From Sipunculus nudus (taxonomy: Eukaryota; Annelida; Sipuncula; Golfingiida; Sipunculidae): a stretch of DNA of 64,000 nt. The number at the start of each line of letters is the position of its first letter. Position 1 is the stretch's first letter. Below are positions 1,560-60,836 of this stretch, piece by piece. Made by a program: the position numbers and the translations under genes. The notes below the pieces were generated by a model, which was not told the DNA's origin, made no database searches, and saw nothing but the letters and a program-made list of their open reading frames with translations. The DNA is taken from contig CM049312.1 of the NCBI GenBank assembly GCA_026874595.1, forward strand, positions 72,574,429 through 72,638,428, given 5' to 3'.

Positions 1560-2345
1560 AGCATATTGCGGAGGATATCGGTAACAGAGACTTAATGTCT
1601 GGTGTCCAAGAAGATTTTTCACGGGCCTCCCTTGATATCAAGTTAGAAGATTCTAGGTGGAAAAGTAAAGACTTGTGCCCTGTTTTCGGGCGTCTGCATC
1701 TTTGAAAGCCTCAAAAATAAAAATTTACAGAAAATGCATAAAAATGTTTTAAAAAATCTAGGTGGGGCCATCAGTATGCAGGAATTGATAAGGAATTAAT
1801 TATACTGAGGGATACTTACAAGCCCTACAGCTCAAAGTATATTGAAAACAGAGACCTAATTTCAGGTTTCAAAGTAGATTTATCATGGACCTCCATGGAT
1901 GTTAAATAAGAAGCTCCTAGGTTGGATGATAACGATTTGTAACCTGTTAACGGACGACGCATCTTTGAAGTTCTCAAAAATAGAGAAATAATGAGTCAAA
2001 TTAAAAAAAAAAACAGATGGCGCCACAAGTCTACAGGAACTGATAAAGAAACTAACTGATAAATAAGGATGCAAGAATCATGGTGATCAGTGCATTAATT
2101 GTCAGATACTAGAACTTTTGTATCAAATTTGAATTATTCTGGGGGAAGGAACTTCAGAGCCCCAAAGCTCGAAGTATATTGGTCACAGAGACCTAATTTC
2201 AGGTTTCAAAGGAGATGTGTACTTCCCTTGATGTCAAGATAAAAGATTCCTGGTCCAGCGGTTACGATTTTTGCCTGGTTAACGGACGGACGGACGGACA
2301 GACGGACGGCCCGACGTACGCCGGAGTGAGAGTGATCGCAATAGC
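1560..2345. repeat. Decayed tandem repeat of about 280-335 bp ending in GACGGACG
   Basis: ATATTG...ACAGAGACCTAATTTCAGG recurs near 1565, 1838 and 2175. Each unit has TTGATATCAA-type and GGTTAACGGACG-type segments. The last ends in a GACGGACGGACG run and GTCAGCTGGGCTAAAA. This style of dispersed repeat is common in marine invertebrate genomes. Confidence 0.65.
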
Positions 2346-5339
2346 TCAGATGTCTTTCAGTCAGCTGGGCTAAAATGAATATTTAACGTCCCGTGGAACG
2401 ATCGAAGTCAAACGCAAATATGGGGGATGAATGTCTTACTAACATTCATGTCAGTGATCTGATCTCTAAGTAATATCCAGCGTCCCTAATTTTTCGGTCT
2501 GCGTTAACCCATTTATCCATTTATCCTGTAAAATATAATGCAGAGAACAATATATAGTGACAGGGTATTGTTGTTTCAGGCATCGATACGCTTCTCAGTA
2601 ATCACTACTGATAATATGTAAAATAATGAGGGAATTTTGAAGCATCTTTCACCAAAAAAAATATGAGGAAATTCTTTTCTCTTAAATTAAGGCTCCCTTT
2701 CTACATCACTGGGCTGATCATCAGTTACCTCAACTTATGAAATATAATTTTATCAATTGTGGGTAAATTAATAAATTAATTGTTTGGGAAAAATAACATA
2801 AAAAATGAAAATTATTAATAATAACTGCGAAAAAAAATAATAAAATGAGAGATGTTAAAGCTCAACGGGGCCCCTCCCTCTGGATCCGTGGTTTCGGGGC
2901 CCCAGGTCCGGAAACGGAGCGGGGGGGGGGGGGCGGTTCCTGAAAAGTGCCCCCCCCCCCGGCCCCATTGTTGTATGCTGGAATAAGAAATGAATGCCAA
3001 GGGATCGAGAAACAACTGTTGTTCACATTTATTGACCCTGCAAGTGGGTCAGTCACTCCCGGGTTTATTCACATGCACAATAGAACTTAATCCCGTGCTG
3101 TATGGAGGTTGACTGAATTGTCAATGACCACAAGGCCGCATTCCGAGCTTTGCCGAAGGTTTTCGTTGGTATTCTCCACTCAGGTCGGAAAACTCAAATC
3201 ACTCAAAATAATGTTTACATTAAGAATTATTTATTGTCATATCGACTATGACACTGTCGGGAAAATTACCTTTAAAATGAGGTATGGCACAGTGTTATAC
3301 CAACGCGGTTACAGAGAACATTGGGGACAAATGTGGAGCGAATTCCTTTAATAAGCATTAGATATATGGAGTCAGGAGGGCTGACGTTGCCATGAACATT
3401 GTATGCCACACGTTCAACTGATGTACTGTATGCAGACGATTAATGTCGATTTGTCAAATCTTGTCAAGAAAACCACATTATTATGTCCTCTAAATTCGTG
3501 TAATAATTGAAATTTAATACCATACCTTATACATAAAATCACGCAAACTGAACATAATCGTTTGAGTCTTCGACCGTACTACTATATTTTTTTCAAACAG
3601 TTTACATCGGCGACGAGGCTTAATATATTTTGGGGACCCCAATAGTAGACATACATATATACATATACACACACACATATATATACATATATTTAGGCAT
3701 ACATATATGTACGTATGGGGTTGATATTGGCAGGGAGTTTAATACAATTCTGTACAAGAGAATATATTAACTGTACAGAGAGGAATACTGGTACTCTTTA
3801 TGTTTTCCCTTCTTATTATTGGCTCAGCCTCCCCAAAACGTGTCATGACTCATGACTGGTGTTCATCCAACGTCTCCGGAATCTGGAGTGTCATCCAGGA
3901 ATATTCAGAAATATACGTTTACTTTTACACGAATAATCTAGGAATATCGGCCATAAATAAGTGAATGCACACAAGGCTCGTCTCATCATTGTGGCCCGTT
4001 CATCTGTTCAGGTCACGGTCGAGCGGCCAACACATCGGAGTGTCGGTGACCAGTGGCGTAGGCATATATTCATTGGGATGAAGATTTCTTATTAAGTCTA
4101 ACCCTTTTGGAAATAACCTTTTCTACAACATGAGCTTACGACTTCCACATTAACAATATATTCTACCACATTAGTACTATATTAGCAATGACTGACTCTG
4201 CGTGTTTCAGTTCCTGATATCTTAATATCTTTTAGGTGCAACCTCTTTCTTGCAAGCTAGTAGATATGTTCAGGCCAGTGATGTAGATCTCGAGTATAGA
4301 CATGGCACTGTAAACGTACTGAAATATACAAGTAATTACATGATGTTAGATGGACATCGGCTAATACTGAGTTAATAAGGGTTCAGTCAACCTATTCCAC
4401 GTGCGTTTGTTGTGTGGATGGAGGATTCCATCAAGATCCCGGACTTTGCCCTGATTTGATTGGCTGGTACACATGTGACATCATAGACTAAACTTATCAA
4501 CAACTCGGATCTAGTAATGCATGTTGTTTTGATTCTTATCTTGAGATTAGGGACTGACATTGGCAGAAATACTGTGCTGTTACTGAGAACAAGAATTATT
4601 AGTCAAAGGGGATTTCCCAGTGTGTGACGTCACTGCCGAGTTGACATTGCTCATAGATGTGCCAATAGTTTTTGAACAAATCACACAACTTCTTGTTTTT
4701 AACGGAAAAAACATAAAGAAAAAAATTTTTCTCCATGAATTTGGCTCATTTTATGTAAAATCTATATTAATATTTGTTTTTTTTTTCATAACCATTTATG
4801 TTATATGATAATATAATGAGATTGGGATGAGTTGATAAAGGAGGAAGTACCCTTTACTAATTATACTGGCGGTAGGGGGCGCCACTGATAAGAATGTCAC
4901 AACACCGCAATCTAGAATATATTAGTAAGCATCAATATTAACAAACACCAGCTTTACCCCTCTGCCCATTCCAATCCACTTACCATATCCGTGTTATAGG
5001 ATAAGTTTTCATAGAACAGTAATGTCGTACGGTTTAGCGGTGGTTCATAGCTGAGGACCAGTTAGTTGCCATGTGGTAACATGTTTAATTAAGAATTTAA
5101 ATTATTATCATTGTGGATGTTTCTTTGTTTTATTGTAGCTTGCCTTTGATAAGGAGTACGTAATAGGAAGACACTTATGCATAGTATATTAAATTCAGAT
5201 GTGTATTATTTATCAGTGTATATATAGTTAAATGCTTTAAACAGCGGCAGGAACACATACAGCGGTGTGATACATGTAAAACGTGTATATTCAGGCAAAC
5301 GCAATAAAGTCCTCACATACACCCAAACCAAGACTAAGT
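2346..5339. other. No gene seen
   Basis: AT-rich sequence with a poly-G/poly-C pair near 2.94 kb and short CA/TA runs near 3.65 kb. Open frames are short and low in complexity. Confidence 0.6.
2918..2962. repeat. Paired poly-G and poly-C tracts
   Basis: A run of about 13 G and a run of about 10 C are separated by 17 bp. The overlapping Pro/Gly-rich open frames on the minus strand are artefacts of these tracts. Confidence 0.85.
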
Positions 5340-38800: not shown

Positions 38801-40872
38801 ACTGGAGTTCAAGTCCAAGTTTGTCCTTGAGTTTCGAGTCCAAGTCCATCTTCTTGGAGTCCGAGTCATTTGGAACCCAAGTCCAAGTCCAATACTAACG
38901 TTAAAACAATTTTTAATAGAATATCCATATTATCATATACATATTAAAGTTAATTCACACATGGTGTTACTATAATGGTTAATAACTTTTTTCTGCTCCC
39001 GATGCCGAGCAGAGCTTGGCATATATAGCGTAATTATGTTGTAATATTCCATCAGAAGTTCGCACATATACATAATACGTGATAGTTGTTCTTCTATTGA
39101 AGACAAGCTCGAGTCCATCTCGAGTCCTTAGCTCCGAGTACAAGTCCGAGCCCAAGACCCTCGAGTCCAAGTCACAGTCCCTAAAAATTGGACTCGAGTC
39201 GGGACTCTAGTCCAAGTCGGGGCTCTAGCCCTACATCACTGTTACAAATACTTACAATCGGGGTTTCGAGGCGGCCATTCATCTCGCTTGATGATTTCTG
39301 TTGTGGCTCCCTCAAAATACATCTGTGTTACTATACTAGTATGGAAAGGGGCTCCATCTTTTAGAAAAAGATTTCTTGGATAAAATCTCCTGCAGTGGAT
39401 GAGCAGCTTATCATCCAACAACTTAATGTAGTTTTCACTGTTAGCTTTGGCTCTCTCGGCATCAATTAAATTAATGTTTGTCTTCCCTCCCCCAAGAAAC
39501 TCAAGCTGAAACCAACATCTAATGATAGAGGCGAGATGACGGAATCTCAGACTTTCGTTTACCATTGACCCGATTGTTCGGTTGATTTTTTGCTTTTCTA
39601 GAGTCCTTCTCGCCCGTGAAAATGCTTCTCTTAACATATTCAGCTGAGTAAAGGTTTTTTTTTTTTTAATTTCGACTTCTAGTGTTTCTTTTCCTGCGCA
39701 CATCATGGTCTCTCCTTGAAATCCTAATCAAGATTTTTTTCATCGCCACAGAAGATTATGAAAGTCACTGGCTACTTCCCCTTAAAGATTTGTATGCGTC
39801 CCTGGCCATCCTCTTGTGGTTGAATATTATTATTTATGCCGGCATTGTTCTCTTCATACCATAATGTCTTTGGTCTCCCCTGATTGTCGGCATACTGAGT
39901 ATGTGTTTTGTATTTTGCTATGAATCTATTGACATTCGTTTACAATCCGTCTACCACCCGAGTCCTTTTCCTTGAAACAATTATCCTTGGTGGCCTTATC
40001 ACTCGTGCCCAAAACCATTCTTGGTCCTTCTAATCAAAACTTTGGACTGAACTAATCCTGGTTGCAACTGCCGATTAAAAAAATTATATGGAAACTTGAC
40101 ACCCAGACACGAATTTCTAGCATGATACTGATTTACAGATGGTATCATCCGGAGGCTGACACGGTCGTGTCATGCATGTGTCATTTCAGATGGCCTATTC
40201 TAATACTGCATTTTTTCATTTTTTTTAGTACTCGCAGAAAATGCACGTTTTCTATGATATTTTGAAAGTTTATTGATATCCAAATGTTACACCATGAGAA
40301 ATGTCAATAGAATTGATACATTGATTACTGAGGTATTACGATTCGGACAAGTTTTAGAATCATATGCATCAACATATAGGCACGGAAGCACAACGTTCGT
40401 TAGAAACATGTTCGGAACATTTCAGTAATGTTATCTAAGAATGCTAGCCACTGGCGTCTCACAAGCTATGACATTAACATTTTAAGATGTTTAATTAGAT
40501 GACCAACATTGTCTCAACGTATGCTGTCTCTGGGGAGCAGGTTTTTACATGTCAGATGATTACATGTCATTTCCCTTTCATATCTTTTTACACATTTTAG
40601 CACGTTATATTGACACCATCTTGGCAAGTCGATCACTTTGGACCCGTGTATCTAAACATGAACTGGTAAACAATATGGAGTCAACAAGAACTAAATCAAG
40701 GAGCGTTAGAACATGTGCTGCCACCTGCCAGCGGAACAGATGCTGCAAAAGCTTTACATTTAGTCCAACTAGCGACACCTGCTGGTTGAACTATGAGGTG
40801 CTGAGTGATGCGTATGCCTCGTATCCGTCCGAGCAAAATGCGGAATACTTCGCAATCAAGGAGGAATTTTGA
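35817..40872 (+). CDS. Gene B: short paralogue of gene A (signal peptide - novel domain - PAN-like)
   Basis: Exons 35817-35865, 37592-38098 and 40601-40872 join at phase 1 with GT-AG sites. The total is 828 bp, 275 residues plus TGA. It starts MRRTTWGFIGVFYYCL (a short signal-peptide-like segment), then carries the same unrecognised module as gene A and a Cys-rich PAN-like domain. There is no linker and no lectin domain. The intron from 38099 to 40600 contains a MITE inside a mariner remnant. An alternative first exon at 29877-29958 has the same phase and the same coding length (82 bp) as gene A exon 1, so the true start is unsettled. Confidence 0.75.
36013..36228 (-). CDS. Hypothetical 71-aa open frame or exon in a gene B intron
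   Basis: It starts with a true ATG and reads MTSSIMQVVEYLISEGRNGS, then YALAVKALTNAVMALLTGQE. Composition is protein-like and not low-complexity. A possible donor CCG|GTTAGT overlaps its stop, so it may be a fragment of an exon or of an old retrocopy. I do not recognise it. Confidence 0.25.
   Translation of the reverse strand: MTSSIMQVVEYLISEGRNGSTFNSKVCMYALAVKALTNAVMALLTGQEVLPNEIENHLDQPIRNRRFQTTG
37592..38098 (+). CDS. Gene B exon 2: unrecognised ectodomain shared with gene A
   Basis: This is a 507-bp phase 1-1 exon with acceptor TTATTTTCCAG and donor AACG|GTGAAT. It encodes about 168 residues starting RVACEQTTFG. Motifs aligned with gene A exon 2 are LRVQIWR, MYRLLA, TGVQYVTP, GDVYGFFMYGP, FIPYDGLNC, LLYELFPDS, TVGMC, SSWRACRDYSFQIVLG. 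The open frame runs on a few codons past the donor to a stop, which is not the true end if the PAN exon is used. Confidence 0.85.
38445..38490. repeat. Short tandem duplication (22-23 bp x 2)
   Basis: CAGATGCAAGTTATGCGAG + TAC occurs twice in succession. Confidence 0.85.
38500..40080 (-). pseudogene. Tc1/mariner-type transposase remnant
   Basis: Minus-strand pieces include SENYIKLLDDKLL, FLKDGAPFHTSIVTQMYFEG and EWPPRNPDCK, matching the catalytic D(x)...HTS... and W(P)xxxPD regions of Tc1/mariner transposases. Upstream pieces (to about 40080) contain several stops. The frame ends at 39242, where a MITE begins, and transposase-like sequence (LKEFW, RWRAYLA) resumes below 38744. It lies in a gene B intron on the opposite strand. 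Confidence 0.72.
38744..39241. mobile_element. hAT-like MITE with subterminal GACTCGAGTCC repeats (complete copy)
   Basis: The element is 498 bp with perfect 11-bp terminal inverted repeats CAGTGATGTAG / CTACATCACTG. Both ends are packed with GAGTCCAAGTCC-type repeats, and the middle is AT-rich. CAGTG ends suggest the hAT superfamily. The candidate 8-bp target duplication (ACCAAAAT / TTACAAAT) is only half matched. Confidence 0.82.
40601..40872 (+). CDS. Gene B exon 3: PAN/apple-like domain and stop
   Basis: The acceptor is CACATTTTAG, and the exon runs to a TGA at 40870-40872, 272 bp. It encodes ARYIDTILASRSLWTRVSKH and later SVRTCAATCQRNRCCKSFTF, SDTCWLNYEVL and AEYFAIKEEF. The Cys-x3-Cys followed by CCKSFTF and TCWL is a good PAN/apple pattern. 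The frame and phase match exon 2. Confidence 0.78.
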
Positions 40873-49862: not shown

Positions 49863-50280
49863 TCAGTGGGTTTTCAGTTCTAGCCCTGGATGTCCCTTCA
49901 TAATCCCAGTGGCAGTATACCCATTGGGCACATACCCATTAGCCCCATACCCATTGGACGCCTGCCCATTAAGGACGGTGCCATTCGGTTTAACATCAGT
50001 TGCGGGGAAACTGATCTTCGCTTTTTCATGTATCTCAACCATGAACTCTTCCTCTGTTTGTTCTTCCTCCTCTCTGGGTTCCGGAGGTTTTGCGATTCCC
50101 ACCAGCACTGCACTCATGTCCCACATGATGTCACACAGATCAGCGACACGTGTGTCATGTCTGGTCTCCCTCCTCTGCCGACATTTGTAGAAGGTTTTCC
50201 CTGTCAGGTGCTGCAGGGATTTGTCAACTGCGCAGTAAATGATCGTCTGGGCACCAGCCTTGTAAGACAGCACTATAGGC
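49863..50280 (-). CDS. Gene E terminal exon: SDR C-terminus with acidic and NGY-rich tail
   Basis: This is a 418-bp coding exon from acceptor CCTTTCAG to TGA at 49863-49865. It begins KPIVLSYKAGAQTIIYCAVD, the family's C-terminal helix region, then HLTGKTFYKCR. It continues into PEPREEEEQTEEEF and a tail with NGTVLNG, SNGYGANGY, VPNGY and TATG. The tail is longer than in ordinary SDRs. Opposite-strand open frames here are shadows. Confidence 0.87.
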
Positions 50281-51967
50281 CTGAAAGGTTCGGAAAAATA
50301 TATTATTCATGTGTACGGGTGTAGCAATGCATGAAAAAAAAATTGATGTAATGAATTGCAAGCCCTCCTTAAATTGTAATTGATTATTAATATCCTGAAC
50401 AATTTATTTCGTTAATTTTATTTTTTTTTTGCATGTACCATCCCAAAGTCCACTGTGAGCTCTCAAATGTGACTGAGCAGTTTGGAATTTCAAAACTATT
50501 TAATGCTCATTATCACTCTTAAATCTACTTTAAGCATTAACTGGTACACATCTCTCTTCAAACAAACAAAGAGAGAGCTGCATTTTTCTTTTATTTTTTA
50601 ACATTTACTGACATTCATTTTGGTAAAAATATCTAGAATTTACTACTTAAGTAAGAATTGAACCAAAGGTAAAGAATCAATAACTGAATCTATTCTAAGG
50701 GCCCTCACAATTCACAGACCTAGTCATGGGCAATGTTATCTTTAGTGATGTGCCAATTAATCAATTATATTGATGATTGGTCGTTTTCTTTCATAACTGA
50801 TAAAGTTGATTGCACCTTTGCATACGCTATCACAAACAATTTTTAGGGCACATACAAAGACGTCATATTATCACTATAAGAAATTCTTATTCCGTCAGAT
50901 ATAAAAGAAAGATGAGAAACAAAAAACTTTGTGCAACAAATAGGCGTGAACAACCCAACCATGACCTTGACCTTTCAGCGGGATGTACAAGTAAGACTGA
51001 ATTTAATCAGTCAATACACTTGATCAATATTTCTTAATTAAATTTTAATTGTAAAAGAAGTTTAATGTACAGCAAGAAAATTCCATTTGTACTAGCAGTC
51101 TCACTGTGGAACATTTGGTGGCTTATCCTAGAAATTGCAAGGCAGCGTCTCTTTGCTGGTGGTAGATCCATTCGTAACTGCAGGTCTTGTTGATCATGTG
51201 TAGATTCACTATACAGAATGAATTCAGTGCATATTCTGTCTATTATTAATAGAGTATAATATGCACGGCTTTATTATGTATTTTGCTTGGACAAACATGT
51301 CATGACTGTTTTCCTGTGATCCTTAATAAGGAATGTACCTAACCATGAGTAGTGTAATTGATACAATCTAACACGGGCACACCCAGCCCAGACAAGGAGT
51401 AAACAGCTGAAATACAGCCCAAGTATGGAAACCTGCGCATGTAAGTGTATAGTGTTAATTAGCTGGTCACTGTCTGATGGGTTTCCCAAAAGATAAAATG
51501 ATTAAGGGAAACTGGAACCTGACCACTGTCACTCAGGTTTGTTATAACCAATCTGAGTGTCTAAGGCCGATGTACATTTTGTTTCATGTAAGCCGTTCAG
51601 ATCTCAAACTTGAATTTTCCCTTATATTGAAGCCAACTTTATGTTTGACTCTTTTGTTCCCTAGAGATTTGTTCATAACTTGAATCTACCTTTTAATGGA
51701 CCCCGTTATAAGAAAAACTGTAATTAATTGTTTTTGCCTTACATCTAGTCATCGGTGATGTTTGTGTATTTATACTCACTTTATTAAGAAGCCAATGAAG
51801 CTGACCATACAAGATGGGAGGTACTCCTTAAACGGTGACAAAATATGATCACCTACAGACCCAGGATGCACCGCATTAACTGTCACGTCTGTACCTGAAA
51901 CATCATCATCATCATCACTGCTATTAGTTTTGCTAGATTTATCATCTGTAAAAACTGCACCTGTAAT

Positions 51968-51998
<31 letters not shown>

Positions 51999-53783
51999 CT
52001 GGTATCAGGATTGCTAGATTCATCATCTGTAAAATCTGCACCTGTAATATCATTATCATCATCATAATTATCATCATCATCATTGTTATCAGGATTGCTA
52101 GATTCATCCTCTGTAAAATCTGCACCTGTAATATTATCATTATCATTATCATTATCATCATCATTGTTATCAGGATTGCTAGAATCAGCATCTGTAAAAA
52201 CTGCACCTGTAATATCATCTTTATCATTATCATTATCATCATCATCATCATAATTGGTATCAGGATTGCTAGATTCATCATCTGTAAAATCTGCACCTGT
52301 AATACCATCATCATCATAATTATCATCAGCATCATTGTTATCAGGATTGCTAGATTCATCATCTGTAAAATCTGCACCTGTAATATCATCTTTATCATTA
52401 TCATTATCATTATCATCATCATCATTGTTATCAGGATTGCTAGATTCATCATCTGTAAAAACTGCACCTGTAATATCATCATCATCATCATCATCATTAT
52501 CATCATCATCATTGTTATCAGGATTGCTAGAATCAGCATCTGTAAAGACTGCACCTGTAATATCATCATCATCATCATCATCATCGTTATCAGGATTGCT
52601 AGAATCAGCATCTGTAAAGACTGCACCTGTAATATCATCATCATCATCATCATCATCATTGTTATCAGGATTGCTAGAATCAGCATCTGTAAAGACTGCA
52701 CCTGTAATATCATTATCATTATCATTGTCATCATCATCATCATCATCACTGGTAACAGGATTGTATGATTCATCATCTGTAAAAACTGCACCTGGACTAT
52801 CATCATCATCATCATCCCCATGTGCAAGCATCACTAGAATCATCATCAGTCAAATCTATGCAATATCATCTTCATCATGATTAAATCAACATCATCATTT
52901 TCATCATCATCAGTTTAGGTACCACTAGCAAGATTTGGCACTTTGCAAACATGGTGTCATGGAATATTGGATGTAAACCTAAATTGTTCATCTTCATTTT
53001 CAAATGATCATGTGTTTTGAAAAGCACCCACTGGATGCTGTGATTTTCTTGCATTTTGAGAGTATACACAACCAACACTCATCACCATGCTGTGTGCTGA
53101 CATAAGCCTGCCACCCATTGATGGTTTTGCTACAATTTTTATCTGCGACCACTCACAGACAGCCTGTGATCATCTGCTACTGCTTGTGATTGACAATTAG
53201 CAAACAGTGGCAGACAGTTTGCAATCTTCTGTGACTGACTGTGACTGGTGGGCAACAGTTACAGACTTGAGATCACAGAGGAACTGAGTTTCTTGCAATG
53301 TTTATTTTGGAAAACATAAACTTTACCAGACTTTGTCCACAAAGCTAGGACAAGTCACAGAATCAGTTCCCTCACCATATCTCCTGCAACAAAATGGAAT
53401 ACATTAAGTCCCAAGTCGAAAATTGCATCTCTGATACAAGCAACCATCGCAAAGGATCACAAGGGAATTGCAAGTTTTCGGACTTAGAAGCCTTGTGATA
53501 ATTTCTTACTGCTAGTCGCAATTCACATCAGAAGTCCTGCTCACCTGGGATTCTCATACAATCATTATATAATTGTCATAATCATAAAATATATATATAT
53601 ATGTATATATATATATAGTGAAATCTCAAAATTATGACAACCAACAAGATCTCGATGAAGTGGTCTGGGTTTAAATGTGGTTATTTAAACAAGATCTGAT
53701 TTAAAGAGCAAAACAAAAATGGGACCGTGAACAAGAAGTCATTATTTTTAGGTAGGCACTCAAATCAGTTGTTAGGTGAGGTT

Positions 53784-53855
<72 letters not shown>

Positions 53856-56800
53856 AACAAACAATCACCAAAACCAACTCTTTTTGCATATGATGTTTAA
53901 AATTAACATAGGACAGCAATAATAAAAAAAGGTTTTTTATATAAATTTGTGACAAACCTGCAAGCTTCCTGGAAAGAGCCTTCACTTGGAGCACACTACC
54001 TATGCGGCTCATTTTATGTCCCCTCAGGATGGAGTATTTATGGACATCTTTGGCTTTGCATACTTTGAGATCGTAAAACGGATCCCCAGCATATGCAGTG
54101 CCATAGATGACTGACAGTACATAGATGATTCTGCTTGGCGCTGACTGTTTCAGGATGTCCAGGAGAAGGTGTGTCAGGAGAAAAGGACCAAGATGGTTGT
54201 AGGTGAACACCTCATCAGGACAACCTGGGGACGGCTTCTTTGAGCTGTATACAATCTCTATCAAAATATTCAAAATCATATTTTAAATTTATTTATCTAT
54301 ATAATTATAGATACTAAAATTATTTTTCTATATATTTATATATATTTATATAAATATATTTTTGAGTTTTATATCATTTTTTAAATCAATAAAGCTAATG
54401 GTATTAAGGTATCATTGTTTGACTTATTTTCTGATGAGTTTTATCAAAAGCCTTCATATTCTTTGTAAGTTATCACGGCGCCAAGTAGCCTCGTGACCAA
54501 CGACCTCATTAAATATGCTTGGATATTGGCAATAATCAAACTCGGGTGAGATAATCTATTGGTAAGTAGTTATGGTGAGTTTCGTGAAAATCCATCAAAA
54601 CCCCGGTAAGTTATCGCAGCAAAACTAACAGTTAATTGACGGACGGATGTACACTAAGATGGACAGATGGGCATATAAAAAACAAGATCAGATATCAATT
54701 GAAAGACAAGAAATAAAGGATGTAAATAGTCTGACATATCTTGAAGCAGAAGTTAACAAGGAAGGGGGATCAAAGGAAGACATAATGAAAAGAATAAATT
54801 TAGCAAGAAGCGCATGTGTAAAATTAAATAAACTGTGCAAATCTACCAGACAGACACAAAGTTAAGAATTTTCAAAAGTAATGTACTATCTGTATCATTA
54901 TACAGTTCAGAGTTATATTTTAAGAGACTTGAAGAATGACAGAGACAGACAAGATTAAACTGAATTCTTTTCAAAGAAAATGTTGTAGGATGGATACTTA
55001 AGATCCACTGGCCAATGAAAATTAAGAATAGAGAACTTTATACAAACACAAATATTAAATCAGTTACAATGTACATCAAAATAGACGTTGGAGACGGTAA
55101 GGGCACATTTTTAGAAAGGAAGACAACAGCGACACTAAAGTATCTTGAACTTGGGAACCAGAAAGGAAGAGAAGAAGGGATAGACCAAAGATAAATTGGA
55201 GAAGGACAGTACAGGCAGAACGGGACATGATGGGATGGAGCTCCTGGAAGGAGACAGCAAGGATTGCCAAGGATCAAGAGAGGTGGAGGGGACTGGCAAA
55301 GATCAAGAGAGATGGAGGGGACTGGCAAAGATCAAGAGAGGTGGAGGGGACTGGCAAAGATCAAGAGAGGTGGAGGGGACTGGCAAAGATCAAGAGAGGT
55401 GGAGGGGACTGGCAAAGATCAAGAGAGGTGGAGGGGACTGGCAAAGATCAAGAGAGGTGGAGGGGACTGGCAAAGATCAAGAGAGGTGGAGGGGACTGGC
55501 AAAGATCAAGAGAGGTGGAGGGGACTGGCAAAGATCAAGAGAGGTGGAGGGGACTGGCAGAGATCAAGAGAGGTGGAGGGGACTGGCAAAGATCAAGAGA
55601 GGTGAAGGGGACTGGCAAAGATCAAGAGAGGTGGAGGGGACTGGCAAAGATCAAGAGAGATGGAGGGGACTGGCAAAGATCAAGAGAGATGGAGGGGACT
55701 GGCAAAGATCAAGAGAGGTGGAGGGGACTGGCAAAGATCAAGAGAGGTGGAGGGGACTGGCAAAGATCAAGAGAGGTGGAGGGGACTGGCAAAGATCAAG
55801 AGAGGTGGAGGGGACTGGCAAAGATCAAGAGAGGTGGAGGGGACTGGCAAAGATCAAGAGAGGTGGAGGGGACTAGCAAAGATCAAGAGAGATGGAGGGG
55901 ACTGGCAAAGATCAAGAGAGGTGGAGGGGACTGGCAAAGATCAAGAGAGGTGGAGGGGACTGGCAAAGATCAAGAGAGGTGGAGGGGACTGGCAAAGATC
56001 AAGAGAGATGGAGGGGACTGGCAAAGATCAAGAGAGGTGGAGGGGACTGGCAAAGATCAAGAGAGGTGGAGGGGACTGGCAAAGATCAAGAGAGGTGGAG
56101 GGGACTGGCAAAGATCAAGAGAGGTGGAGGGGACTGGCAAAGATCAAGAGAGGTGGAGGGGACTGGCAAAGATCAAGAGAGGTGGAGGGGACTGGCAAAG
56201 ATCAAAAGAGGTGGAGGGGACTGGCAAAGATCAAGAGAGGTGGAGGGGACTGGCAAAGATCAAGAGAGGTGGAGGGGACTGGCAAAGATCAAGAGAGGTG
56301 GAGGGGACTGGCAAAGATCAAGAGAGATGGAGGGGACTGGCAAAGATCAAGAGAGGTGGAGGGGACTGGCAAAGATCAAGAGAGGTGGAGGGGACTGGCA
56401 AAGATCAAGAGAGGTGGAGGGGACTGGCAAAGATCAAGAGAGGTGGAGGGGACTGGCAAAGATCAAGAGAGGTGGAGGGGACTGGCAAAGATCAAGAGAG
56501 GTGGAGGGGACTGGCAAAGATCAAGAGAGGTGGAGGGGACTGGCAAAGATCAAGAGAGGTGGAGGGGACTAGCAAAGATCAAGAGAGGTGGAGGGGACTG
56601 GCAAAGATCAAGAGAGATGGAGGGGACTGGCAAAGATCAAGAGAGGTGGAGGGGACTGGCAAAGATCAAGAGAGGTGGAGGGGACTGGCAAAGATCAAGA
56701 GAGGTGGAGGGTACTGGCAAAGATCAAGAGAGGTGGAGGGGACTGGCAAAGATCAAGAGAGGTGGAGGGGACTGGCAAAGATCAAGAGAGGTGGAGGGGA

Positions 56801-59800
56801 CTGGCAAAGATCAAGAGAGGTGGAGGGGACTGGCAAAGATCAAGAGAGGTGGAGGGGACTGGCAAAGATCAAGAGAGGTGGAGGGGACTGGCAAAGATCA
56901 AGAGAGGTGGAGGGGACTGGCAAAGATCAAGAGAGGTGGAGGGGACTGGCAAAGATCAAGAGAGGTGGAGGGGACTGGCAAAGATCAAGAGAGGTGGAGG
57001 GGACTGGCAAAGATCAAGAGAGGTGGAGGGGACTGGCAAAGATCAAGAGAGGTGGAGGGGACTGGCAAAGATCAAGAGAGGTGGAGGGGACTGGCAAAGA
57101 TCAAGAGAGGTGGAGGGGACTGGCAAAGATCAAGAGAGGTGGAGGGGACTGGCAAAGATCAAGAGAGGTGGAGGGGACTAGCAAAGATCAAGAGAGGTGG
57201 AGGGGACTGGCAAAGATCAAGAGAGATGGAGGGGACTGGCAAAGATCAAGAGAGGTGGAGGGGACTGGCAAAGATCAAGAGAGGTGGAGGGGACTGGCAA
57301 AGATCAAGAGAGGTGGAGGGTACTGGCAAAGATCAAGAGAGGTGGAGGGGACTGGCAAAGATCAAGAGAGGTGGAGGGGACTGGCAAAGATCAAGAGAGG
57401 TGGAGGGGACTGGCAAAGATCAAGAGAGGTGGAGGGGACTGGCAAAGATCAAGAGAGGTGGAGGGGACTGGCAAAGATCAAGAGAGGTGGAGGGGACTGG
57501 CAAAGATCAAGAGAGGTGGAGGGGACTGGCAAAGATCAAGAGAGGTGGAGGGGACTGGCAAAGATCAAGAGAGGTGGAGGGGACTGGCAAAGATCAAGAG
57601 AGGTGGAGGGGACTGGCAAAGATCAAGAGAGGTGGAGGGGACTGGCAAAGATCAAGAGAGGTGGAGGGGACTAGCAAAGATCAAGAGAGGTGGAGGGGAC
57701 TGGCAAAGATCAAGAGAGATGGAGGGGACTGGCAAAGATCAAGAGAGGTGGAGGGGACTGGCAAAGATCAAGAGAGATGGAGGGGTTGGCTGCATGATCT
57801 CATATGTCACCATGGGCATGAAGAGGATAGGTTGGAAGGTAGTTTAAAATGAGTTCAAAGAATAAAGAAGTTTCATTTCTCATTCATGACCACATTCTGA
57901 ACTAGTGATGTAGGAATGGAGTACAGACTTGGACTCGAGTCCACATTTTTAGTTACTTAGACTTTGACTTAGAGGGTCCAGGACTCAGACTTATACTCTA
58001 AGTCAGAGGTACCAGTAATCTGAACTCTGGGTCCCTGTCAAGTCCAGTAATATAAAAATTAACAATAAACTCAAATTTCCTTTTAAAACTTCTTTTAACA
58101 AGAGTACCGCAAATGAGCATAATACACCCGTGGTGTATCTGGTGACCTTTGACCTTATTAAATATGCATGAATTTTAATGATAAAGTAATTCATGTGAGA
58201 AACTCTATTGGTAAATATGAATAATGAGTTTCATGAAAATGCACAGGATTTTTGGCAAGTCACCAAGGTCCTTTCAAATGTGGTGACCTCCAACCTCATC
58301 AAATATGCATGGATTTTGCTGAAAATCCAACTAAGGCGAGATATTTTATTGTTTAACATTTATGATCCGTTTTATAAAAATCCTTTGCACAAGTTATCAC
58401 AGCGACACCACAAAGTAGCTTAGTGATCCATGACATTATTTAATATGAGTGGATGTTGCCCACAATCACACTCAGGCAAGATAATCTCTCTGTTAGTAGT
58501 GATGGTGAGTTTCGTGAAAATCCATCAAAGCCCTGGTAAGTTATTGCGGCGACTAAAAGTTAACTGACGGACAATGGGTATATCATAAAACTCCCGTCAC
58601 ATGACAGGCATATAAAAAAGAGATTTGTTTTGGACATGGATGGATTCCCATTCCAAGAGACTTGGGCATTAAGAAGGTGGACTTAGAATTGAATCTCAAG
58701 GATTTGGACTTGGACTCAGGTGGTATGTACACAGACATGCACTTGAACTCGGATATTGTGGACAAACTAACTTAAACATCATGAAATCCCATTTGCCCCT
58801 TCTTTGAATAAAACACTGAAAAGTTACAAAAGACAATGCCAAGCATCCAGTCTACTGATGTGTTTATTAATATACCATGTGAATGACTTGATATAAATAT
58901 GGCACTGATACCTGCAGCATGGACAAGCACATGAAGCTGTTTTTCATTAACCTGGATGTAGCTGACAAGCTCCTTGACCGATCTCATGTCAGAGGGAATC
59001 ATGGGATGAAACACAACATTGTGATTCCCTGTGGCATCTGTGGAATAACAGGTAAAAATATGATGTAAATGAAGATGTGGATTCCCTGATTCTGTTGATT
59101 TCAGTGAGCTGGGCTAATTAAGAAGAACATAATTCACTACTCAGGAAACTGACACCCCCCCCCCCCCCCCCACTATTTAAATATGTCACATTATGACTTC
59201 TATTTTATAAACATGGACAGTGTACCATGTGACTGTTTATTTTTATTTAATGGAGATCTTGTACCCTTTGCCTCTTGTTATTTCAAATTGATTAAATATT
59301 GAAAATAGCTAAGAACAACATTTTTAATTAATGTGTTACTATTTTAAGAACCAATGGATATAAATGGAGAACAACAAAATAACAGAAAAAAAATCTGATA
59401 TCTTTAAAAATATTTACACAATTTTCATATTACCATTTGTAAAGGCACTCTGGACACATTTATGAAATAACATGTCTACAAGGAAAATTGTTAAACAGTG
59501 CTTGACCTGTGACTGAAACGTTTCTCTTTTTAATAGATAAGAAACATTAATTGTGGCAGCAGCATTCCCTCAAACAGACCTGTGACAAAACACAACAAAA
59601 TATCCATTTCCAAGTTTTTCCTCTGAACATATAATTAAAGCTAAAATTCAACATCAATTTATAAATTATCACCCATTGAATATGTTGCAATATTCATATG
59701 GTGTATCTATTTGTAATGAAATTCAATGTGTCTCAGACATCTGACAAGTTTCATGTGATAAAATTTTGGAGTTTGGCCACACCAGGTAGCGGTGTCATAG

Positions 59801-60836
59801 CTGCCCTCATATCATATGCTGCTGTTGTGTTTGCCACTGAATGGACTCTGACTCATTTAAATTTATTTCATACAATTAAAAGAAATGCTGCATTGATATA
59901 TTCAACAAATGATCTGAATTTTTGTTTATGTCATTAAATATCATGTAGGAGTTGGAATCCAAGGTTGTCCCACTGTCAAAGTCAATTTTACTGGGACCCA
60001 TTTATTTTACATAAAATACCATCAGATTTACAGATTTGAATTGTCAAGGGTTGGAATGTCAAGTGACAAATGTTTACTAAATTTTACAAGGTGAGTCTTG
60101 GTTTGATCCAGTCTGATCCAGTTTTATCCTGATGAAAATGGATTAAACCAGATTTAACCTTTTTTAATCTATTGTTCTGTTGTTTCTTTTCTCTAAATGA
60201 AACAAAACCCTGAAATGATTATTCATCAAATGATGCCAGTTTCTCACTTTAAATTTGACACCAAGAATGTGACAACTATGAATATTAATTGTGAAGACAC
60301 CACCAGCTTCTGTGGCTCAGGGATAGAGCACAGGACTCAAAGAAGGCAGACCCTGAGTTCGATCTCAGCCAAAGTGGTGAGATTTTCACATGGGCCCTAT
60401 GCCAGGGTGAGCACCATGCAGGCTTAGTGGAAGGCTTTGTCCAATGGGAGTGTTCCACTTACAAATGAGTGCACATTCCAGGGGTTCCTCATTGATATGA
60501 TCCAGCCTGGGGATGATTACAAACCCAAGGCCTGTAGGTGCAGTGGTCACCAGATAACACAAGGCTATAAAATGAGAGGATTAGAGGAAGCGTGTGATAC
60601 TGCCCTGTCACATAGTCTAAAATCTGAATGGAAGTCTGCAGATGGATGTACGAATACTTAAATTAGCATTAAAAAATGGAAGTGGTTACCTGCAACAAAA
60701 CATATTAAAAAAGAACTACCTATGATTCTCTCAACTGCAGCTGTTCCTTTTTGTGGATCTTCCGCCGTGATGATAACTCGAGCCCAGCGCTTCGCAAGAT
60801 CGAGCGCAGTTTCATATCCAAGCCCCGAATCTCCCC
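49863..60836 (-). CDS. Gene E: short-chain dehydrogenase/reductase-like protein (5' incomplete), catalytic motif altered
   Basis: Five exons join with perfect phase: 60836-60720, 59037-58912, 54257-53958, 51894-51780 and 50280-49863. They give about 357 residues plus TGA. Overall order matches retinol-dehydrogenase-type SDRs: GDSGLG of the Rossmann loop, a PSDMRSVKELV segment, HVLVHAA at the NNAG position, YNHLGPFLLTHLLLDILK, RIIYVLS, GHKMSR at the YxxxK position, TVNAVHPG, then GAQTIIYCAVD. The catalytic Tyr and Lys are His and Arg, while the Ser-type position and the NHLG Asn are kept. The C-terminus has an added acidic stretch and an NGY-rich tail. The exon encoding the start and the Thr of TGxxxGxG was not found. 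Introns hold a retrotransposon tail, minisatellites and MITEs. Confidence 0.85.
51780..51894 (-). CDS. Gene E exon: TVNAVHPG segment
   Basis: This is a 115-bp exon with acceptor GTTTCAG|GTACAG and donor AAA|GTGAGT. It encodes (G)TDVTVNAVHPGSVGDHI and LSPFKEYLPSCMVSFIGFLI. The VTVNAVHPG motif is diagnostic of RDH-type SDRs. The upstream open frame of about 310 codons is a minisatellite in the intron, reading in frame with this exon. Confidence 0.88.
51900..52830 (-). repeat. GAT-rich minisatellite of 11 units with a splice-acceptor copy in each
   Basis: About 11 units of 72-93 bp lie directly upstream of the gene E exon at 51894. Each unit has a run of GAT triplets, then ATTACAGGTGCAG, then a stretch reading FTDDESSNPD. 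Lengths change by triplets, so the frame stays open and in phase with the exon. At least two other frames are also open, so openness alone is not evidence of coding. Confidence 0.9.
53617..53793. mobile_element. Small MITE (AAAACCTCGC family), copy 3, inverted
   Basis: It starts TATAGTGAAATCTCAAAATT and ends TAGGTGAGGTTTATTATATA. It reads as the reverse of copies 1 and 2, and again abuts a long (AT)n tract. Confidence 0.58.
53790..53851. repeat. (AT)n microsatellite
   Basis: About 31 AT repeats abutting the small MITE at 53617-53793, just 3' of the gene E core exon. Confidence 0.95.
53958..54257 (-). CDS. Gene E exon: SDR core with NHLG and the altered YxxxK
   Basis: This is a 300-bp exon. 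The acceptor TTTTGATAG was chosen over a later AG because it alone gives phase 1 and the exact family spacing to NHLG. The donor is GCAG|GTTTGT. It encodes NHLGPFLLTHLLLDILKQSA, PSRIIYVLS and KYSILRGHKMSRIGSVLQV. Aligned without gaps to RDH-type SDRs, the catalytic Tyr is His and the Lys is Arg. Confidence 0.85.
54465..54640. repeat. Dispersed repeat (GACCTCATTAAATATGC family)
   Basis: GTTATCACGGCGCCAAGTAG, GTGACCAACGACCTCATTAAA and GGTGAGTTTCGTGAAAATCC match 58085-58610. It ends in TTAATTGACGGACGG. Confidence 0.65.
54640..57850 (+). pseudogene. Decayed 3' end of a non-LTR retrotransposon ORF, split by a minisatellite
   Basis: The plus strand encodes pieces such as IEGQ-like SIERQEIKDVNSLTYLEAEV, KRINLARSACVKLNKL, RIFKSNVLS, then RKCCRR- and GRP-like pieces, TVQAERDMMGWSSWKE and ARIAKDQERWRGL. 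This resumes after the minisatellite as DLICHHGHEEDR. This order is the typical C-terminus of RTE/Jockey-like reverse transcriptase ORFs. Stops and frameshifts occur around 54860-55200, so it is dead. It lies in a gene E intron on the opposite strand. Confidence 0.8.
55266..57785 (+). repeat. 29-bp minisatellite, about 87 units
   Basis: The unit is ACTGGCAAAGATCAAGAG followed by AGGTGGAGGGG (29 bp). Units are nearly identical, with G/A, TGG/TAG and GGG/GGT variants. Because 29 is not a multiple of 3, all three frames translate the same 29-residue cycle, giving overlapping open frames of up to 815 codons. These are not genes. Variant spacing shows a 609-bp (21-unit) duplicated block. Confidence 0.97.
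57902..58782. mobile_element. hAT-like MITE, inverted copy with nested repeat
   Basis: The left end AGTGATGTAGG followed by GACTTGGACTCGAGTCC starts near 57904. The other half (GGACTTGGACTCAGG) lies at 58625-58780. Between them, about 58085-58610 is a different repeat, so the element has been split by insertion. Confidence 0.65.
58085..58610. repeat. Dispersed repeat (GACCTCATTAAATATGC family), nested in a MITE
   Basis: It contains three tandem-like copies of GTGACC..(C)GAC(C)T.ATTAAATATGCAT with intervening GGTGAGTTTCGTGAAAATCC. It splits the hAT-like MITE at 57902-58782 and contains a perfect TGACCTTTGACCT at 58143. Confidence 0.62.
58912..59037 (-). CDS. Gene E exon: SDR segment to the NNAG position
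   Basis: This is a 126-bp exon with acceptor TTCCACAG and donor GCAG|GTATCA. It encodes DATGNHNVVFHPMIPSDMRS and VKELVSYIQVNEKQLHVLVHAA. The LHVLVHAA end corresponds to LDVLINNAG of the family. The spliced reading gives HAAE, so NNAG is degenerate. Confidence 0.82.
59154..59172. repeat. Poly-C tract
   Basis: About 17 C in a row in a gene E intron. Confidence 0.9.
60303..60660 (+). mobile_element. tRNA-derived SINE
   Basis: An A-box-like TGGCTCAGGGATAGAGC is followed 35 bp later by a B box GAGTTCGATCTC. Downstream is a body that includes AAGCGTGTGATACTG. It lies just outside the gene E Rossmann exon, in the intron between the first two known exons. Confidence 0.55.
60720..60836 (-). CDS. Gene E exon: NAD(P)-binding Rossmann loop
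   Basis: This is a 117-bp exon with acceptor TTCTCAG and donor ATAG|GTAGTT. It encodes (G)GDSGLGYETALDLAKRW and then ARVIITAEDPQKGTAAVERI. This is the TGxxxGxG loop and the following helix and strand of classical SDRs. Two bases of a Gly-type codon come from the missing upstream exon. Confidence 0.85.
   Translation of the reverse strand, partial: GEIRGLDMKLRSILRSAGLELSSRRKIHKKEQLQLRES

Follow-up and report, generated by a model that had tools for sequence, protein, structure and literature searches.

The mirage minisatellites of amphioxus (BflGb6, BflGb9 and Adh3) are tandem repeats of an intron-exon border (PMC3087553). In BflGb6 the 150–160-bp unit combines the 3′ end of an intron with the 5′ part of an exon, AG/GT signals are present in many of the mirage repeats, and the authors' RT-PCR suggests regular splicing. 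For potato RdRp, a second report (PMC4974935) describes the gain of an intron via one tandem duplication across an intron-exon border, according to the Rogers model, and its introduction points to fission-yeast genes that hold several 24-bp AGGT duplicates. A literature search, made mostly at listing level, found no arrays of repeated acceptors besides the amphioxus mirages. The human 6-16 gene (IFI6/G1P3) reportedly contains a minisatellite with multiple splice donors (Turri 1995).

The stretch of Sipunculus nudus DNA analyzed here, the window, is 64,000 nucleotides long. On the minus strand of the window, intron 4 of a gene termed gene E ends in a 0.9-kb minisatellite (TRF bounds 51901–52816). 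Like the amphioxus mirages, the array adjoins an exon, its unit holds the intron end with the acceptor, and it displays AG/GT signals, with CAG/GTGCAG in 11 of 11 units (the slash marks the splice border). As in the mirages also, the inner units are homogenised and the edge units are divergent, with a degenerate copy outside. A difference is that the putative exon part of the unit agrees with the real exon at only about 65% of 20 bases. The gene E units are 66–90 bp and GAT-based as compared with 150–160 bp in BflGb6. Because its units are GAT-based the array is tied to the reading frame, unlike BflGb6. As in the potato RdRp gene, border duplication would copy the branch site and the 3′ splice site, but gene E has eleven copies and no new intron is shown. 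The units offer splice sites, as do those of the human 6-16 minisatellite; however the human sites are donors and were named from a transcript, whereas those of gene E are acceptors read from genomic sequence. The kind is thus already known, and what is new here is the tie between triplet repeat and reading frame, along with how many near-equal acceptors there are.

Features of gene E and of the array at the end of its intron 4 (positions are those of the window)
Feature	Position	Strand	Description
Exon 2, gene E	60720..60836	-	In-frame gene model; glycine-rich GDSGLGYETA
Exon 3, gene E	58912..59037	-	In-frame gene model
Exon 4, gene E	53958..54257	-	In-frame gene model; donor TTGCAG/gtttgt
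Degenerate twelfth copy, 5′ edge of array	~52799..52870	-	No acceptor left; gap lengths not divisible by 3
Array, 11 units (72–90 bp, last 66 bp)	51895..52791	-	CAG/GTGCAG in each unit, phase 0 relative to exon 5
True 3′ splice region	51895..51925	-	CTAAT branch-point-like, A at −30; weak pyrimidine tract
Exon 5, gene E	51780..51894	-	Gene model; acceptor at 51894, TTTCAG/GTACAG
Exon 6 with stop codon, gene E	49863..50280	-	Gene model; first base set by hand from the open reading frame

Gene E is a predicted short-chain dehydrogenase gene. Exons 2–6 form a single open frame through to the stop codon, and the whole model scores 54.6 bits with the Pfam domain adh_short (cut-off 26.6). No exon 1 was found by a motif scan. 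Exon 5 starts at 51894, directly after GATGATGATGTTTCAG. In six paralogues (L010, L015, L016, L022, L023 and L028) an acceptor occupies the corresponding position, followed by GT-x-V-T or a similar sequence; L009 and L014 do not have this intron, and their sequence is continuous there with no insert. Position 51894 is considered the true acceptor because of the one open frame over exons 2–6 and the presence of an acceptor there in the six paralogues. CCCCAG was considered as the acceptor of exon 4 and rejected (score −4.8); the acceptor that fits the frame scores 5.0.

In exon 4, His-xxx-Arg is found in place of the dehydrogenase Tyr-xxx-Lys. The gene E sequence GHKMSR aligns with paralogue motifs of the AYSQSK type, with Y replaced by H and K by R, at what is presumably the position of the catalytic Tyr-xxx-Lys motif of short-chain dehydrogenases. 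Gene E appears intact from exon 2 onward, yet perhaps does not encode an active enzyme. A near-identical second copy of the gene was not found in the single assembly searched. The C-terminal tail encoded by exon 6 has an acidic sequence, EEEEQTEEEF, followed by an NGY-rich region, and a 15-bp tandem repeat at 49917–49957 underlies this tail. Intron 3 contains a 29-bp unit in 87 copies (98% matches, 55261–57785). An open reading frame at positions 39242–39727 of the window resembles the remnant of a Tc1/mariner-type transposase.

The original prediction of 11 in-phase acceptor-like copies upstream of exon 5 is borne out, as all were located. The CAG/GTGCAG sites are at positions 52791, 52701, 52626, 52554, 52467, 52377, 52296, 52206, 52125, 52041 and 51960, and the distance from 51894 is 0 mod 3 for every one. 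Site-to-next distances along the array are 90, 75, 72, 87, 90, 81, 90, 81, 84, 81 and 66. GTGCAG and the preceding CAG are invariant, and the 44-base unit cores have a mean pairwise identity of 89%. The claim that each unit has the same acceptor context holds for CAG/GTGCAG but not for the exact string GATGATATTACAGGTGCAG, which occurs six times genome-wide, always inside the array; the other five units vary, e.g. the unit at 52791 reads GTCCAG/GTGCAG. The inner nine units are 0–7 of 44 core bases apart, and the first and last units differ from them at 5–10 of 44. All 11 units display a second in-phase site, TTTACAG/A, 15 nt downstream of the GTGCAG site. The degenerate twelfth copy scores 79, and 984 random 109-mers drawn from the window all fall short of this (highest score 37); gaps break the frame of this copy at the acceptor position. 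The repetition in the array is far beyond chance.

The frame is open from 51776 to 52849 (357 codons), i.e. through all units into exon 5, as had been stated. Splicing to any unit would keep the dehydrogenase frame, also as predicted, since the 11 sites are in phase and stop-free. Depending on the site chosen, 22 to 299 stop-free codons would be added, with an Asp plus Glu content of 32%–45%.

Each of the 11 units holds a 22-base core pattern with 0–1 mismatch, and the rest of the genome (1.43 Gb) has no such match. At 2 mismatches there are five places outside of the array, and three for a reversed-pattern control. A dispersed element was rejected as the source of the unit, as the core pattern has no 0–1-mismatch match elsewhere. 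With the splice site as anchor, core columns 2–21 match exon 5 at 13 of 20 positions, which is equalled by 2 of 1473 AG/G controls from the window; when corrected for choice among eight lengths, 6 of the 1473 are as extreme. The likeness fades past column 21 (columns 2–44 match at 16 of 43 positions, reached by 130 of 1473 controls). In an anchored gapped alignment, 24 of 1473 controls score as high when the first six bases (GTRCAG) are included; when these are left out, the number rises to 180 of 1473 (shuffles 0.059). An unanchored local alignment of the unit with exon 5 is not significant (shuffle p 0.23 and 0.40), and the unanchored exon 5 score is reached by 78 of 171 CAGG[T/C] sites, array sites counted in.

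The exon-5 starts of the six paralogues match the core at 7, 9, 9, 7, 8 and 10 of 20 bases, and eleven exon-4 starts at 3–6 of 20 (Mann-Whitney p 0.0004, the paralogues not being independent). Part of this contrast stems from a T shared by most exon-5 starts, the second base of GT; with this base left out and only the exon-5 starts recounted, gene E matches at 12 of 19 positions and exon 5 of the paralogues at 6–9 of 19. The proposed origin by border duplication is likely, with moderate support from the anchored match and the local occurrence of the core pattern, although significance is not reached when the comparison is longer or unanchored. Elsewhere, a long GAT tract in L041 (1501–1556, C7) is followed by ATAGGTGCAGATTTTA, which resembles the unit junction.

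Acceptors were scored with a 28-position table made from 20 sites, 17 from paralogues and 3 from gene E; two of 19 paralogue rows (L012 and L013) were omitted as doubtful or within an exon. Leave-one-out scores of the 20 training acceptors are 0.4 to 17.1 (median 10.4). The acceptor at 51894 scores 4.2 and the 11 unit GTGCAG sites −0.6 to 7.6, with those at 52701, 52296, 52125 and 52041 above 51894. Pyrimidines at positions −20 to −4 number 6–7 of 17 in the units, 8 of 17 at 51894 and 8–17 of 17 at the training sites. The unit sites score near the true acceptor, yet all are weak. These decoys score like 51894, so the score does not predict that they are silent. Nine of the 11 TTTACAG/A sites score 2 or more, some of them outscoring their unit's own GTGCAG site, and acceptor-like sites are thus under-counted in the tally of 11 copies.

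Intron 4 has 107 AG sites, and 52 are within the array and part of its degenerate edge. Eight of the 52 reach 4.2; seven of those are in phase and three are TTTTTACAG/ATG sites. Stronger sites are found upstream in the intron at 53383 (12.3), 53544 (10.7) and 53695 (9.5). Those at 53544 and 53383 are far above the score of the true acceptor and may mark a possible cryptic exon. At 51894 there are two AGs between CTAAT and the acceptor, and the AG-free stretch is 21 nt. In the units, a branch-point-like CTGAT with its A at 30–55 nt is present in 10 of 11 (none for 52701), and the AG-free stretch is 36–57 nt in eight; it is 3, 10 and 10 nt in units 52791, 52377 and 52206.

The phase and the open frame had been taken as pointers to coding use. 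They are weak as such: triplet slippage keeps the units in phase, and a stop would arise from just 0.64% of single changes in the array frame used. GAT slippage gives length steps of three, and units tend to stay congruent. One of the two other minus frames of the array is open as well. Control GAT-type arrays in the same genome keep phase mostly, but not always: spacings are 2 mod 3 in 6 of 6 cases in the C4 array (L038), in 2 of 2 in L049 and in 50 of 62 in L046, where the other 12 are 1 mod 3. Phase 0 may count for a factor of roughly 3–9 (chance odds about 1/3 to 1/9). The array on C4 (L038, 1005–1574) is a further compound GAT minisatellite with spacings of 80–95 bp. Its stop-free runs of 272 and 461 codons (2043–2858 and 1738–3120) were dropped as an open-frame control, as they adjoin the array cores (1004–1573) and are not inside them.

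Of 17 distinct core changes among the units, 15 are non-synonymous and 2 synonymous, whereas under neutrality a share of 0.24 would be synonymous. The shortfall is not significant (p 0.19 for 2 or fewer synonymous changes in 17). These distinct core changes of the array units show no synonymous excess of the kind expected from purifying selection on the encoded peptide. The idea that acidic peptides are maintained is not supported, given this result and the broken frame of the edge copy. The 136 Asp-run codons of the array include 89 GAT, 23 AAT and 1 GAC, and comparison GAT tracts at nine loci, possibly coding, have 376 GAT, 67 AAT and 14 GAC; these are codon counts and do not represent independent events. 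Coding use of the array units appears unsupported.

On balance, the array is probably a mirage-like minisatellite that arose by intron-exon border duplication and whose unit acceptors are mostly silent. The duplicated segment would have included the 3′ end of intron 4 (GAT-rich tract and acceptor) and no fewer than about 21 bases from exon 5. Tandem copies would have multiplied and been homogenised to give the 11 units, with GAT slippage changing unit lengths in steps of three. Exon 5 would still be defined by the ancestral acceptor at 51894, and the unit acceptors would be cryptic or decoy sites that are normally spliced out with the intron. Occasional use of a unit acceptor would add 22 to 299 Asp-rich codons and keep the frame. 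It is possible, if rather doubtful, that an ordinary compound GAT minisatellite expanded within intron 4 until it reached the exon and that the acceptor likeness is due to chance and shared consensus. GAT-rich unit matches are frequent in the genome (98 of 105 are outside of the array among the matches listed; ten such loci were inspected), the resemblance beyond GTRCAG is modest, and phase 0 could arise by chance at the odds stated. The length-corrected anchored match argues against such an ordinary minisatellite, as does the closer match of the core to paralogue exon-5 starts than to exon-4 starts.

Use of the unit acceptors in an isoform ladder, with 22 to 299 Asp-rich codons in a loop before the VTVNAVHPG strand, is unlikely. 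The in-frame, stop-free sites, the four that outscore the true acceptor, and the AG-free stretches and CTGAT positions of most units are consistent with such use; however no coding constraint is seen, every unit site is weak, and the edge copy is without frame and acceptor. In addition, the stronger sites at 53383, 53544 and 53695 suggest that use cannot be predicted from the score alone. A phase-locked, length-variable acceptor ladder in which allele length sets the number of acidic modules in a surface loop is quite unlikely. That the whole array is constitutively coding, within a single large exon whose acceptor would lie near 52833, is very improbable. The frame is open over this length and TTCTAG/TGATG at 52833 is in phase, but this acceptor scores 0.9, L009 and L014 run through this point insert-free, the six paralogue exons 5 begin directly at GT-x or its like, and the lack of coding constraint applies here also.

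Among the routes proposed for the origin of new introns and alternative acceptors is border duplication, and when based on triplets it cannot easily break the frame. The gene E array would be a natural test of how many near-equal tandem acceptors are treated: whether splicing passes over them, selects by position or uses them as a ladder. If it is silent, the array shows how much acceptor-like sequence the spliceosome tolerates beside an exon. If the ladder is true, the length of an acidic insert would vary in an enzyme-like protein with the frame never shifted.
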